NCBI GenBank assembly: GCA_015494035.1
Contig: WGBZ01000231.1
Coordinates: 1 to 10,397 of the forward strand
Source: Lysobacterales bacterium
GTDB taxonomy: Bacteria; Pseudomonadota; Gammaproteobacteria; Xanthomonadales; Marinicellaceae
Reading direction: 5' to 3'
DNA length: 10,397 nt
The notes under the pieces were generated by a model. The model made no database searches. It was not told where the DNA came from and saw only the letters and a program-made list of their open reading frames with translations. How positions within the stretch are numbered: position 1 is the stretch's first letter; each line of letters begins with the position of its first letter. Below are positions 3,858 to 7,391 of this stretch, in pieces. Made by a program: the position numbers and the translations under genes.

Positions 3858-5603
3858 TCACATCACCGGTTCGGCAAAACCGGCAAAAGCGCTGATAATT
3901 ATGGTCTGAATCTGCTTCGATGACAAATCAACCGCCGGAAAACTGCCCACGGCGCGATAATTTCGGTAAAAATCCGGGTGTCCCGGCTCCACCGCCGGGT
4001 AAGGTGACACTAATTCGTAGCTGCTGGAATAGCGGAAAGGCCACACATCGAACACCGGCAAAGCCCGTGACATGCTGGCAATCAGGCCGCTGACGGCACT
4101 CCACACCGGCACTTCCTCCTTGGCCGCCACCACCCAGCTGTTTTCCGGGTCAGTGTCGCGTTTGATCTGCGATTTCAATGCTTGGGCCACTTCTGGCGAC
4201 TTAATGATCAAACCAGCTTCGGTGTTGAGCGTGTCCGAACGGTGATCGAAGTTGTGCGAACCAATTAACGACCAACGTGAATCAACCACAAACGACTTGG
4301 CATGCAGACCGAAACGGGTGTTTTCATTCACCACCGGCGAGGCAAACATTTCCCGCCAGTAAGCGGGTTTGGGCTTGTATTCGTAGATCAGCAGACCCAG
4401 ACGCTTGAGGTAACGGCGCTTGTGCTTGAAGGAAATGGCGTACACATAAAAAGCATCGGTGGAAGCCAGGCTGTTGGTGGACACCAGCAGGCGGATATCC
4501 GGGTGTTGTCGGCGCAGTTTCTTCATCGCCCGATAGGCCTTGCGGCTCAAGACCAGATAGGGCGTCTGCATGATAACTTCCTGCCGTGCCGACAGGATCA
4601 GGTCGCGGATTTTGACACTCAGGGCCTTGTTGGCCTTCTTGCCGCTGCGGCTGTGCACCACCTTGTCGGGCGAATCGCTGAAGTATTCCACTGACTCGGC
4701 CACCAGCGCGCTGTCCACAAACTTTTGCCGGATGGTGTCGTAATCAAACGCCTGCATGGCCAGCTGTCGCGCATGCGGCGCCAGCGGCGTAAACCACTCG
4801 GACTGGTTGCGCTGATCGGCCAGAATGCGCTGACTGACATCGTCCAGGTGTTCCAGCGCGACGCTGTAGGGGTGCTGCCAGAATTCATCAAAGGACTGGC
4901 GCATTTGCCAGGCCGCCTCGCCCACCACCAGGGCATCCCGGTCACGGTAATCAAAGGCCGGATCCCAGTCAAAATAGCGGTCCTGATAATTGCGTCCACC
5001 GGTAATACCATACCGCCCATCCACCAGAAAAACCTTGTTGTGCATGCGGCGGTTGAGGCTCGACAGGCAACACGCCAGGGCGCTGAAAAAATCGAATTTT
5101 GAGGTATGCGCCTCACGAAAGATGGGGTTGAAGAGCTTGATGTGCAGGTTCTTGTGCAAGGTAGCCAGTTCCGACAGAAACCAGGTGTTGTCCATGGAAA
5201 ATAGCTGGTCAATGATGATGTTCACCTCCACCCCGCGCTTGGCCGCGGCCAGCAGCTCCTGCAACACCAGGTGGCCCGACTCGTCATCCACCCAGATAAA
5301 CGTCTGGATGTCGATGCGCTTTTGCGCCGCCTTAATCAGGTGTAAACGCACCAACAGGGCATCGCTGCCTTTTTCCAGCAGCACCACCCGGGGCTTGCTA
5401 TCGGCCTGGTACGCACGCCACAGATTTTCCAGTGGCGTGTCCAGCGCACAATGACGCGCGTCATTGCCTGCGCAAGTGCTTTCACTGCCCTTTTGCACCT
5501 GCAGGGTCTGATCCACGCGTTTGAGAAATTCTGGCGAGCGGTGGCAGGCGGTCACGTTCCGGGGCCGGACAAGTGGATTCATTTCTGCCCTGTTCGGTCT
5601 CAT
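3858..5603 (-). CDS. Phospholipase D-superfamily protein, ClsC-like cardiolipin synthase candidate
   Basis: This 581-residue protein has two HKD catalytic motifs. The first is HNKVFLVDGRYGITGGRN with His188, Lys190 and Asp195; the second is HAKSFVVDSRWSLIGSHN with His434, Lys436 and Asp441. Two HKD motifs in one chain make a complete active site. The segment around the first motif, with GGRN followed by DRYF and a YRDRDALVVG stretch, resembles bacterial ClsC-type cardiolipin synthases, which move phosphatidyl groups between phospholipids; a nuclease or other transferase cannot be excluded. No signal peptide or membrane helix is evident. I chose ATG 5603 because GGAAG lies 9 nt upstream, overlapping the PPTase stop codon; ATG 5582, seven codons later with AGGG 5 nt upstream, is a good alternative. 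The frame stays open up to 6086, but that part lies over the PPTase gene and looks non-coding. Typical ClsC is ~470 residues, so this one is longer. Confidence 0.88.
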   Translation of the reverse strand: MRPNRAEMNPLVRPRNVTACHRSPEFLKRVDQTLQVQKGSESTCAGNDARHCALDTPLENLWRAYQADSKPRVVLLEKGSDALLVRLHLIKAAQKRIDIQTFIWVDDESGHLVLQELLAAAKRGVEVNIIIDQLFSMDNTWFLSELATLHKNLHIKLFNPIFREAHTSKFDFFSALACCLSSLNRRMHNKVFLVDGRYGITGGRNYQDRYFDWDPAFDYRDRDALVVGEAAWQMRQSFDEFWQHPYSVALEHLDDVSQRILADQRNQSEWFTPLAPHARQLAMQAFDYDTIRQKFVDSALVAESVEYFSDSPDKVVHSRSGKKANKALSVKIRDLILSARQEVIMQTPYLVLSRKAYRAMKKLRRQHPDIRLLVSTNSLASTDAFYVYAISFKHKRRYLKRLGLLIYEYKPKPAYWREMFASPVVNENTRFGLHAKSFVVDSRWSLIGSHNFDHRSDTLNTEAGLIIKSPEVAQALKSQIKRDTDPENSWVVAAKEEVPVWSAVSGLIASMSRALPVFDVWPFRYSSSYELVSPYPAVEPGHPDFYRNYRAVGSFPAVDLSSKQIQTIIISAFAGFAEPVM

Positions 5604-5610
5604 GTGTTTG

Positions 5611-6621
5611 TCACTTCCATGTCCAGCGACGGTAGGCGTCCTGACCAGGCCTGACCGAGGCATGACCGTCATCGCCATTATCGCCATTATCGCCGATATC
5701 GCCGTTATCGCCGTTATCGCGAGCAGAGTCATCGTCAATGCTGACGGCATCGATGGGGCGATCAGCCCAGAGGCAAAACAATCTGTGGCAATCACTGTCA
5801 GGGTCTGCGCTGACAATCCACAACGGCCGGGCATCCGATGCGTGCCGCCCTGTCCGGGTTTCAGGGTCCAGCACTGCTTGGCGGATGCTGTGCCACAAGC
5901 GTCCGCCATCGCGTTTGACACGCGCTTCCCTGGCCGTCCACAAGGCATAAAAAGCCGCTTGCTTGTCCTGACCGTTTTTCTCCTGCAATGCCGCTTGCTC
6001 ATGGTGAGAAAAATAGCGCTTGGCCAGTTTTTCGTGATTTTTCCCGGCCCGGAAATGTTCCACATCCAGCCCGATGGCCCCCTCACCAGCCATGGCCGCC
6101 AGCGCCACCAAACCCTGGCTGTTGGCGTAGGAAAAGGCCCAATCCAGACCCTTCACAAACGGTTTTCCATTGGCCGAGTAGCCAATGTCTTCCACGGCCA
6201 CCGCCTGACCTGCCAGGTCAGATAGCCTGTCGGCCAGCCACTGGCGACCCGCGGCCCGCTGTTGCTGGCGCGAAAGTCCCTTAGGGAAGCTCTGATTGAA
6301 TCGTGACACGGCATCTGGCGGCGTAAAATCGTCCATTTCCGCGTTGCAAACCTTAGCAATAGCCTTGCTATTACGTGCGGCTTGCGCCTTGAGCTGAACA
6401 ATTTTACACTCCAATCCGCTCGCGCCAGATTGAATCAGAGCTTCCTTAGGCAAACGTGAAACAAACAAGTGTACTGTTTGTGGCCGAACCCGGTTACGGT
6501 GCGAGCAGCCCGCTTCTGACACTCCAGGGTTTTCCAACACCTGCAACTGGCTGGCTGGCCTCGCCAAGCCGTTTTTTCTGAAGCACAATCCACCGGCTTT
6601 TTTCTGCATCCAATCACCCAT
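5611..6621 (-). CDS. Sfp-type 4'-phosphopantetheinyl transferase interrupted in frame by a MITE
   Basis: The core matches the PPTase superfamily, which moves phosphopantetheine from CoA to acyl- or peptidyl-carrier proteins. It shows GKPFVKG, then IGLDVE (Mg-binding Asp186 and Glu188) and WTAREARVK (Glu232, Lys236), numbered from ATG 6621. Two conserved positions differ: the usual FxxSHS is FSYANS, and the first Lys of WxxKEA is Arg231. The frame runs through a 161-bp transposable element that adds 55 codons between VHLFVSRLPK and GLSRQQQ; without it these join into a plausible N-terminus. A C-terminal tail of about 50 residues carries six Asp-x-Gly triplets (302-319). ATG 6621 overlaps the pteridine reductase stop as TGATG. 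Other possible starts are ATG 6609, TTG 6468, or ATG 6336 inside the element, which would give a shortened protein. The ~45 residues before VHLFVS look little like known PPTases, so the start is uncertain. It may be active, impaired or a pseudogene in the making. Confidence 0.8.
   Translation of the reverse strand: MGDWMQKKAGGLCFRKNGLARPASQLQVLENPGVSEAGCSHRNRVRPQTVHLFVSRLPKEALIQSGASGLECKIVQLKAQAARNSKAIAKVCNAEMDDFTPPDAVSRFNQSFPKGLSRQQQRAAGRQWLADRLSDLAGQAVAVEDIGYSANGKPFVKGLDWAFSYANSQGLVALAAMAGEGAIGLDVEHFRAGKNHEKLAKRYFSHHEQAALQEKNGQDKQAAFYALWTAREARVKRDGGRLWHSIRQAVLDPETRTGRHASDARPLWIVSADPDSDCHRLFCLWADRPIDAVSIDDDSARDNGDNGDIGDNGDNGDDGHASVRPGQDAYRRWTWK
5662..5720. repeat. 9-bp tandem repeat (minisatellite) in the 3' end of the PPTase gene
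   Basis: Five full units of consensus ATCGCCRTT occupy 5671-5715 on the plus strand (ATCGCCATT twice, ATCGCCGAT once, ATCGCCGTT twice), with a diverged unit at 5662-5670 and a partial one at 5716-5720. On the minus strand it encodes six Asp-x-Gly triplets (5718 down to 5665) in the PPTase tail. Because the unit is nine bases, gain or loss of copies would keep the frame. Confidence 0.9.
6281..6284. repeat. Target-site duplication TTAG, left copy
   Basis: TTAG directly abuts the left inverted repeat and is repeated at 6446-6449 on the far side. This fits the YTAR target preference of some IS5-family elements. Confidence 0.8.
6285..6302 (+). repeat. Left terminal inverted repeat of the MITE
   Basis: GGAAGCTCTGATTGAATC, matching the complement of the right end at 17 of 18 positions. 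The single mismatch is the central base of an internal GATTnAATC palindrome. Confidence 0.88.
6358..6372. repeat. Central hairpin of the MITE
   Basis: AATAGC and GCTATT form perfect 6-bp arms around a 3-nt loop near the middle of the element. It may fold in DNA or RNA; no T-tract follows, so it is not a convincing terminator. Confidence 0.6.
6428..6445 (-). repeat. Right terminal inverted repeat of the MITE
   Basis: Read on the minus strand it is GGAAGCTCTGATTCAATC, one base different from the left end. Confidence 0.88.
6446..6449. repeat. Target-site duplication TTAG, right copy
   Basis: Second copy of the TTAG next to the element. Removing the element and one copy joins the flanking codons as CGT TTG CCT AAG GGA CTT on the minus strand, an uninterrupted frame. 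Confidence 0.8.
6461..6481. promoter_or_regulatory. 7-7-7 inverted repeat, possible operator
   Basis: ACAAACA at 6461-6467 and TGTTTGT at 6475-6481 are perfect complementary arms separated by 7 nt, a symmetry and size typical of a dimeric regulator site. It lies in the poorly conserved 5' part of the PPTase frame, 12 nt from the transposon target site. If the true PPTase start is downstream of 6481 this would be a 5' regulatory region; otherwise it is coding and possibly coincidental. Confidence 0.3.
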
Positions 6622-7391
6622 CACATATTCAGGCTGCGGCCGCCATCCACGGCCAGAATCTGGCCGGTAATATACGGGGCATTGGCGAGAAAACACACCG
6701 CTTCAGCGATGTCCTGCGAACTGCCGGTGCGCCCCAGGGCGATGCGATCCAGAATCTGCTCCCGGGTTTGACGGGTTTCTTCAGCATTGGCCGTGTCCCC
6801 TTCGGGCCATAAGATGCAGCCTGGGGACACGCCATTAACCCGCACCAGCGGGGCCAGCTCTTTGGCCAAGGCTTTCACCAGCATGGCATTGGCGGCTTTG
6901 GCCATGGAATACACCGGGTGGTTTTTCAACGGCTTGTCGGCATGAATGTCCACCAGATTGACAATGCTGCCACCAGTTTTTTTCAGCGGCCCAGCGGCGG
7001 CCTGAGACAAAAACAGCGGCCCGGCCACGTTGCTGTCAAACAAGCGGTGGTAATCGTCGCGATTTATCTGCCCCACCGGGGTGGGAAAAAACTCCGAGGC
7101 GTTGTTCACCAGCAGATCCAATCGGCCCGTGTTGCCAATGACTTCACTCATCAACGCATCACAGTCCAGCTCAGGCCCCAGGTGCGCCTGCACCAGTGTC
7201 GCACTGCCAGGCCGACTGGCGTTGAGGGCCTCGGCCAGGGCTTGCGTTTGCACTATTGATTCCCGATAATGCAGCACCACGTCATACCCCTGTTGGTGCA
7301 GGTGTTGCGCAATGGCCGCGCCCAAGCGCCGCGCCGCACCGGTCACCAACGCCACCTTCCCAGTGCCGGATTTTTCCTTATGAGCCAGCAT
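6621..7391 (-). CDS. folM: Pteridine reductase, PTR1/FolM-like short-chain dehydrogenase
   Basis: A 256-residue Rossmann-fold short-chain dehydrogenase. The nucleotide-binding motif is TGAARRLG (17-24) with Arg where ordinary members have Gly, followed by HYRES (41-45); both are typical of NADPH-dependent pteridine reductases. NNAS is at 96-99. The catalytic set is Asp148, Tyr161 and Lys165 (YSMAK): Asp replaces the usual Ser, with the same 13- and 4-residue spacing as the Asp-Tyr-Lys triad of PTR1. The family reduces dihydropterins to tetrahydropterins and can act as an alternative dihydrofolate reductase. ATG 7391 gives a normal N-terminus, with GGGG about 9 nt upstream. It is the first gene of the leftward operon and overlaps the divergent MidA gene by 12 nt. 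Its stop overlaps the PPTase ATG. FolM versus another pterin/dihydrofolate reductase is not settled. Confidence 0.9.
   Translation of the reverse strand: MLAHKEKSGTGKVALVTGAARRLGAAIAQHLHQQGYDVVLHYRESIVQTQALAEALNASRPGSATLVQAHLGPELDCDALMSEVIGNTGRLDLLVNNASEFFPTPVGQINRDDYHRLFDSNVAGPLFLSQAAAGPLKKTGGSIVNLVDIHADKPLKNHPVYSMAKAANAMLVKALAKELAPLVRVNGVSPGCILWPEGDTANAEETRQTREQILDRIALGRTGSSQDIAEAVCFLANAPYITGQILAVDGGRSLNM
7242..7270 (+). promoter_or_regulatory. Candidate sigma70 promoter for the MidA-type gene
   Basis: TTGCGT (7242-7247), a 17-nt spacer and GATAAT (7265-7270, 5 of 6 to consensus) lie inside the pteridine reductase coding region on the opposite strand. Transcription would start near 7277, giving a leader of about 100 nt before ATG 7380. 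Found by inspection only. Confidence 0.35.

Follow-up and report, generated by a model that had tools for sequence, protein, structure and literature searches.

The PPTase gene of the window, by which we mean the whole stretch of 10,397 bases that was analysed, carries a MITE within its reading frame, and we hold it probable, at roughly three chances in four, that the gene makes a PPTase with a 55-residue transposon-derived loop, whose conserved residues are in place, which is read through from an ATG coupled to the preceding short-chain dehydrogenase (SDR) gene and in which the inserted residues serve as a tolerated linker. The window is contig 231 of a draft genome of 2.14 Mb in 386 contigs that is 88% complete (G000), and it was compared above all with two congeners, G001 (99% complete) and G002, with G010 from the same family and with G012 and G018 from another genus of that family. 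The features concerned are the following.

5611..6621, minus strand: PPTase gene with the insert, 336 amino acids from the ATG at 6621 (PF01648, E 8.9e-13; database protein P0001)
6281..6284, no strand: target-site duplication TTAG (CTAA on the gene strand), from the sequence
6285..6445, minus strand: MITE copy, 161 bp (GGAAGC...GCTTCC), from direct reading of the letters and a repeat search
6285..6302, plus strand: terminal inverted repeat, one end (repeat search; end pattern found 526 times in G000)
6334..6336, minus strand: element-supplied ATG, a candidate alternative start (MDDF...), read in frame in the sequence
6428..6445, minus strand: terminal inverted repeat, other end, 17 of 18 bases matching (repeat search)
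6446..6449, no strand: target-site duplication TTAG, second copy, from the sequence
6621..7391, minus strand: upstream SDR gene (open reading frame and profile match; the same neighbour in G002)

Direct reading of the letters bears out what the sequence-only reading had claimed, namely that a 161-bp element with ends matching at 17 of 18 positions lies between TTAG duplications and that element plus duplication (161 + 4) make 165 bp, or 55 codons, through which the minus-strand PPTase frame runs without a stop; that frame, over element and duplication, reads KEALIQSGASGLECKIVQLKAQAARNSKAIAKVCNAEMDDFTPPDAVSRFNQSFP. The repeat search of the window pairs the arms 6282-6302 and 6428-6448 at 90% complementarity, and the copy shares 92.5% identity with the consensus built from the 84 sampled copies of 161 bp. 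The element is a MITE: it has terminal inverted repeats and a target-site duplication, is short, occurs in many copies and contains no transposase.

Allowing up to two mismatches, the end pattern has 526 matches in G000 (260 and 266), 313 in G002 and none in G001, and the reversed pattern, used as a control, is absent from all three genomes, so that the insertion signature in the PPTase gene is far above chance (526 ends against 0). From two ends per copy we estimate about 260 copies in G000 and about 155 in G002; an internal 22-base pattern was found 173 times in G000, 94 times in G002 and never in G001 (control in G000: 0 against 173). Copies were drawn from match lists ordered by similarity to the window copy or to its peptide, or by pattern, and thus not at random. 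Among 150 distinct full-length copies, 84 of which are 161 bp long, the flanking 4-mers are led on both sides by CTAA, CTAG, TTAA and TTAG; in the 161-bp class, YTAR stands on the left in 59 and on the right in 63 of the 84, and an exact 4-bp duplication accompanies 49 of them, as it does 81 of the 150 copies of all lengths. The copy nearest to the window element is 6.2% different (189 others compared), and the median nearest-neighbour distance among the 190 copies is 4.3%; these distances do not suggest a very recent burst.

The RNA of the element is predicted to fold into one long hairpin (-83.7 kcal/mol, z -8.8, none of 200 shuffles equally stable), which could hinder translation or attract RNase III. 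The frame used in the PPTase gene is without a stop in 55 of 196 sampled copies; in the 161-bp copies 41 of 91 are open in this frame and 42 of 91 stop at one same codon, shares of open frames that are probably too high because the sampling was not random. Across the open frame, variability hardly differs between the three codon positions (0.057, 0.052 and 0.071), and the open frame may be a chance product. Head-to-tail MITEs are common, with 21 adjacent pairs (gap of at most 12 bases) among 184 matches in G000 and G002, overlapping loci being retained in this count. In the reverse orientation the element has a stop after EALIES, so that some frames end in an EPLIES or EALIES tail (L139, L084). 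Small inverted-repeat elements at L033, L034 and L035 (G018, G012 and G022) have other ends (GAGACCTCTGCATAA or similar) and the same central hairpin core as this MITE, as though elements had swapped their cores and ends. Related ends are present in other families of the order, with 50, 43 and 20 matches per genome in G041, G050 and G133; in G041 and G050 the listed pairs of facing ends enclose about 260-510 bp.

The YTAR targets and GGAAG-type ends liken the MITE to the IS5 group of the IS5 family, which has a 4-bp YTAR duplication and ends of the same type; the difference from IS5 is that no transposase with the MITE's ends was found in the genomes searched. The search for a parent covered the transposase models PF01609 and PF05598. 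Neither of the two PF01609 matches of G000 belongs to an IS with the MITE's ends: the transposase on contig C174, although it has an element end beside it, is part of another IS that has landed in the remnant of a MITE (L148, about 4045-4924), and around the one on C282 there are no MITE ends within 3,365 bases, up to four substitutions being allowed. PF05598 has one match in G000, on the same C282 contig and with the same frame length; PF01609 has four matches in G057 and none in G002, G041, G050, G133 and G106, all of them incomplete drafts. Of the earlier suggestion to look for further copies and for a full-length IS with the same ends, the first part has yielded hundreds of copies in the genome and the second, with these two models, no such IS.

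Copies of the MITE lie in frame in several unrelated conserved genes, which encode the PPTase, GspK, NadD, a HAD protein and a lipoprotein-like product. A database search for proteins of about 200-630 residues that contain the element peptide yielded three proteins out of nine candidates, namely the PPTase, GspK (P0002) and a HAD phosphatase (P0003), the last being the sole source for the HAD fusion. In GspK the 55 residues lie within the prepilin leader, ahead of a QKG/QNG motif that is presumably the prepilin cleavage site; this insertion is common to G000 and G002 (L026 and L151; G000:C54 and G002:C46), and P0006-P0009 are GspK proteins without it. The NadD gene of G000 (L139:946-1990, contig C383) holds two tandem copies in frame, amounting to 110 residues, and the parts on either side match the insert-free NadD of G001 at 56% and 55%. 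These two parts are the sole G000 matches of TIGR00482, a model that meets G002 only weakly (its NadD was not found) and reaches its cut-off in none of four genomes. A short G000 gene has the element ahead of what looks by eye like a lipoprotein signal. Both in the HAD protein and in NadD the insert interrupts the conserved domain, and hence the element would have to be translated if these enzymes work.

As regards the PPTase itself, its ATG shares one base with the stop of the SDR gene (TGATG), and the same 336-residue product is in the protein database as P0001. The protein has the features of group II PPTases (Sfp, AcpT, HetI), i.e. the ACPS domain PF01648 and, in alignment, all 13 of the 13 columns that are invariant among 26 insert-free relatives. 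It resembles that group also in that the profile of its family matches Sfp and the NCBIfam AcpT model matches it (E 6.1e-21); it differs in that its AcpT score of 74.9 bits stays below the equivalog cut-off of 174 bits, as does that of the insert-free P0004 (74.5), and in that it is apparently the only PPTase of the cell. By eye, the alignments place the insert between the first conserved segment resembling a strand, which it follows directly, and the first segment resembling a helix. The family profile meets Sfp (E 7.5e-23) from residue 45 onward only, which indicates that the region before is poorly conserved in any case, and between G000 and G002 the stretch before the insert is fast-evolving (dN/dS 0.85), whereas most of the part after it has a dN/dS of 0.225, a value that mixes time before and after the insertion; most of the latter part is thus under constraint between the two genomes. 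Near the C-terminus there is a 9-bp repeat (window about 5661-5720) encoding GDN repeats, and this GDN region is 12 residues longer than in P0004 and P0005. The motif FSYANS, where many relatives have FSxSHS, occurs in this PPTase lineage with and without the insert and is therefore not a consequence of the insertion.

Were translation to begin at the ATG supplied by the element, the PPTase would be shorter: it would be without the first strand and would have 18 residues from the element at its N-terminus. We regard this as unlikely. This ATG does lie in the PPTase frame, and use of the same ATG would shorten the leaders of the gspK and lipoprotein-like fusions and make them more like those usual for such genes; by eye, however, no good ribosome-binding site precedes it in the PPTase gene, the VHLFV segment ahead of the insert aligns with the start of insert-free relatives, and the conserved parts that precede the insert in NadD and HAD would need read-through there. 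Under read-through from the SDR-coupled ATG, the expected tryptic peptides include EALIQSGASGLECK and VCNAEMDDFTPPDAVSR, the second of which covers the internal ATG.

Among the six genomes searched, PF01648 has one match each in G000, G001, G002 and G010 and two each in G012 and G018, and the acpS model has no match in the first four, with the proviso that its sensitivity is incomplete (of 14 control genomes, 9 match at any score, E. coli included, and 5 over the cut-off). The window gene is probably the sole PPTase of its genome, against which it counts that G000 is only 88% complete, so that a second gene could be in the missing part, and that G012 and G018 do have two PF01648 matches. Fatty-acid synthesis requires PPTase activity, and as no other PPTase or acpS was found in the profile searches, the insert-carrying gene is most likely functional in the cell. 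The converse, a recent insertion that left a pseudogene or an inactive protein, would agree with the absence of the insert from the closest relative, P0004, and with the fact that the activity of the window gene is predicted only; we consider it improbable nonetheless, given that the frame is open for 336 codons with the invariant residues kept, that no replacement gene was found, and that the copy differs by at least 6.2% from the 189 other sampled copies and is hence not brand-new unless a close copy escaped sampling.

The history of the site can be read from alleles without the element. In the G002 ortholog the empty site is TTGCCTGAGGGAC where the window has TTGCCTAA, the element and CTAAGGGAC, and it differs from the duplicated site of the window by one base (CTGA versus CTAA). 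At the protein level P0004 (269 residues; 90% identical to P0001 across the aligned part) and P0005 (271 residues; the product of the G002 gene) lack exactly the 55 inserted residues and are the only other proteins among the matches listed at E <= 1e-8. The expected allele without exactly 165 bp has thereby been found, as protein in P0004 and P0005 and as DNA in G002. An assembly chimera, with the repeat misjoined into the PPTase gene, might be suspected in a genome as fragmented as G000 (386 contigs) that holds hundreds of copies of the repeat; it is very improbable, as the same 4-bp duplication stands at both junctions, the flanks run without loss into the empty allele, and the database has the same protein on a contig of 17,106 bases as against the 10,397 bases of the window contig, an assembly that is possibly not independent. 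The notion that PPTases have long had the 55 residues as a functional domain, and that their likeness to a repeat is secondary, is refuted by the element peptide in two unrelated database proteins and by the alleles without exactly these residues, and the insert is present at the PPTase site in none of the 26 aligned relatives (a few weaker or shorter matches were left out of the alignment), so that no ortholog was seen there with the same residues and no repeat signature.

The sampled MITE sites are depleted in genes: a coding open reading frame (score above 20) spans 5 of 123 MITE sites as against 238 of the 480 YTAR sites used as control (Fisher p 4e-24), and 8 of 150 MITE sites as against 64% of 600 random positions. 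The measure misses some real in-gene sites, since the window site itself scores only 4.7, and a two-sided coding score, by which no in-frame case is good on both sides, is not sensitive, as the window gene is among those that fail it. With respect to the inserted residues, the element part of gspK has a dN of 0.047 and a dS of 0.060 between G000 and G002, the rest of the gene 0.009 and 0.17. Constraint on the gspK element as a whole, which these values could suggest, was not borne out: when 128 copies of G000 were compared with 64 of G002, the five shared ones differ at 3, 7, 7, 4 and, in gspK, 8 of 161 bases, so that extra constraint leaves no sign here. Neither the gspK dN/dS nor the variability by codon position gives a sign of protein-level selection on the inserted residues, which look like a tolerated linker with no function of their own.

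Taken in sequence, the fusion would have arisen as follows. A high-copy, IS5-like MITE with YTAR duplications would have transposed into the PPTase gene at what the alignments, by eye, suggest to be the loop between the apparent first strand and first helix; because element and duplication make up 55 codons and this copy is stop-free in one frame, the reading frame survived. Ribosomes would start at the SDR-coupled ATG and read through the element, giving a PPTase with a 55-residue transposon-derived loop, in which the conserved residues stay in place and the fold would be retained. As no other PPTase was found, presumably only an insertion that preserved frame and function could survive, and the same sieve may have left the in-frame copies in gspK, nadD, the lipoprotein-like gene and the HAD gene. 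We infer that such copies are survivors, most in-gene insertions having been lethal or lost, while those read in the stop-free orientation and frame persisted where a loop or leader could tolerate them. A stronger proposal, which we put forward as doubtful, is that the MITE acts as a portable cassette for in-frame use: one sub-family, read in one orientation, would provide a stop-free linker of 55 codons that brings an ATG of its own, is built into essential proteins (the sole PPTase, NadD) and secretion leaders (GspK, the lipoprotein) and, in the leaders, may supply the start codon and leader of the working gene.

In-frame fusions of bacterial MITEs are established for RPE, Correia, ERIC and YPAL elements (PMC2229807, PMC10969869, PMC5896051). 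The Rickettsia palindromic elements (RPE) are described as about 105-150 bp long, situated between genes as well as in frame in unrelated conserved genes, and forming a long hairpin RNA (PMC2229807, PMC10969869); a guanylate kinase that bears an RPE is reported to be made as protein and to be active, its affinity for the substrate being altered (PMC2229807; also PMC10969869), and a table in PMC2229807 sets a question mark against their duplication. The window MITE is likewise short, palindromic, prone to a long hairpin and in frame in several unrelated conserved genes, but, compared by description only, it differs in its host and in having YTAR duplications, IS-like ends and empty alleles in close relatives. 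Correia/NEMIS, ERIC and YPAL/RU-2 are also bacterial MITEs with hairpin RNA and in-frame fusions, and the Yersinia case, where a predicted signal peptide is encoded in part by a MITE (PMC2229807), is comparable to gspK and the lipoprotein-like gene; their ends and hosts are other ones, a distinction drawn by description and not by sequence. Narrow literature searches returned no publication on Marinicella and MITE, or on MITEs in connection with the IS5 family and YTAR, which does not prove that the subject is unpublished, and a search for in-frame MITE insertions with IS5 gave nothing relevant as judged by title and start of abstract.

The window MITE represents a new family of in-frame bacterial MITEs, well supported as an insertion, the phenomenon itself being known. 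What it adds is bacterial transposon sequence inside essential enzymes for which an empty allele, a target duplication and an apparent lack of a backup gene come together. With several such genes in one lineage (PPTase, NadD, GspK) and natural insert-free alleles of them, the question raised for Rickettsia, whether inserts of this kind are neutral, harmful or useful, becomes testable elsewhere.
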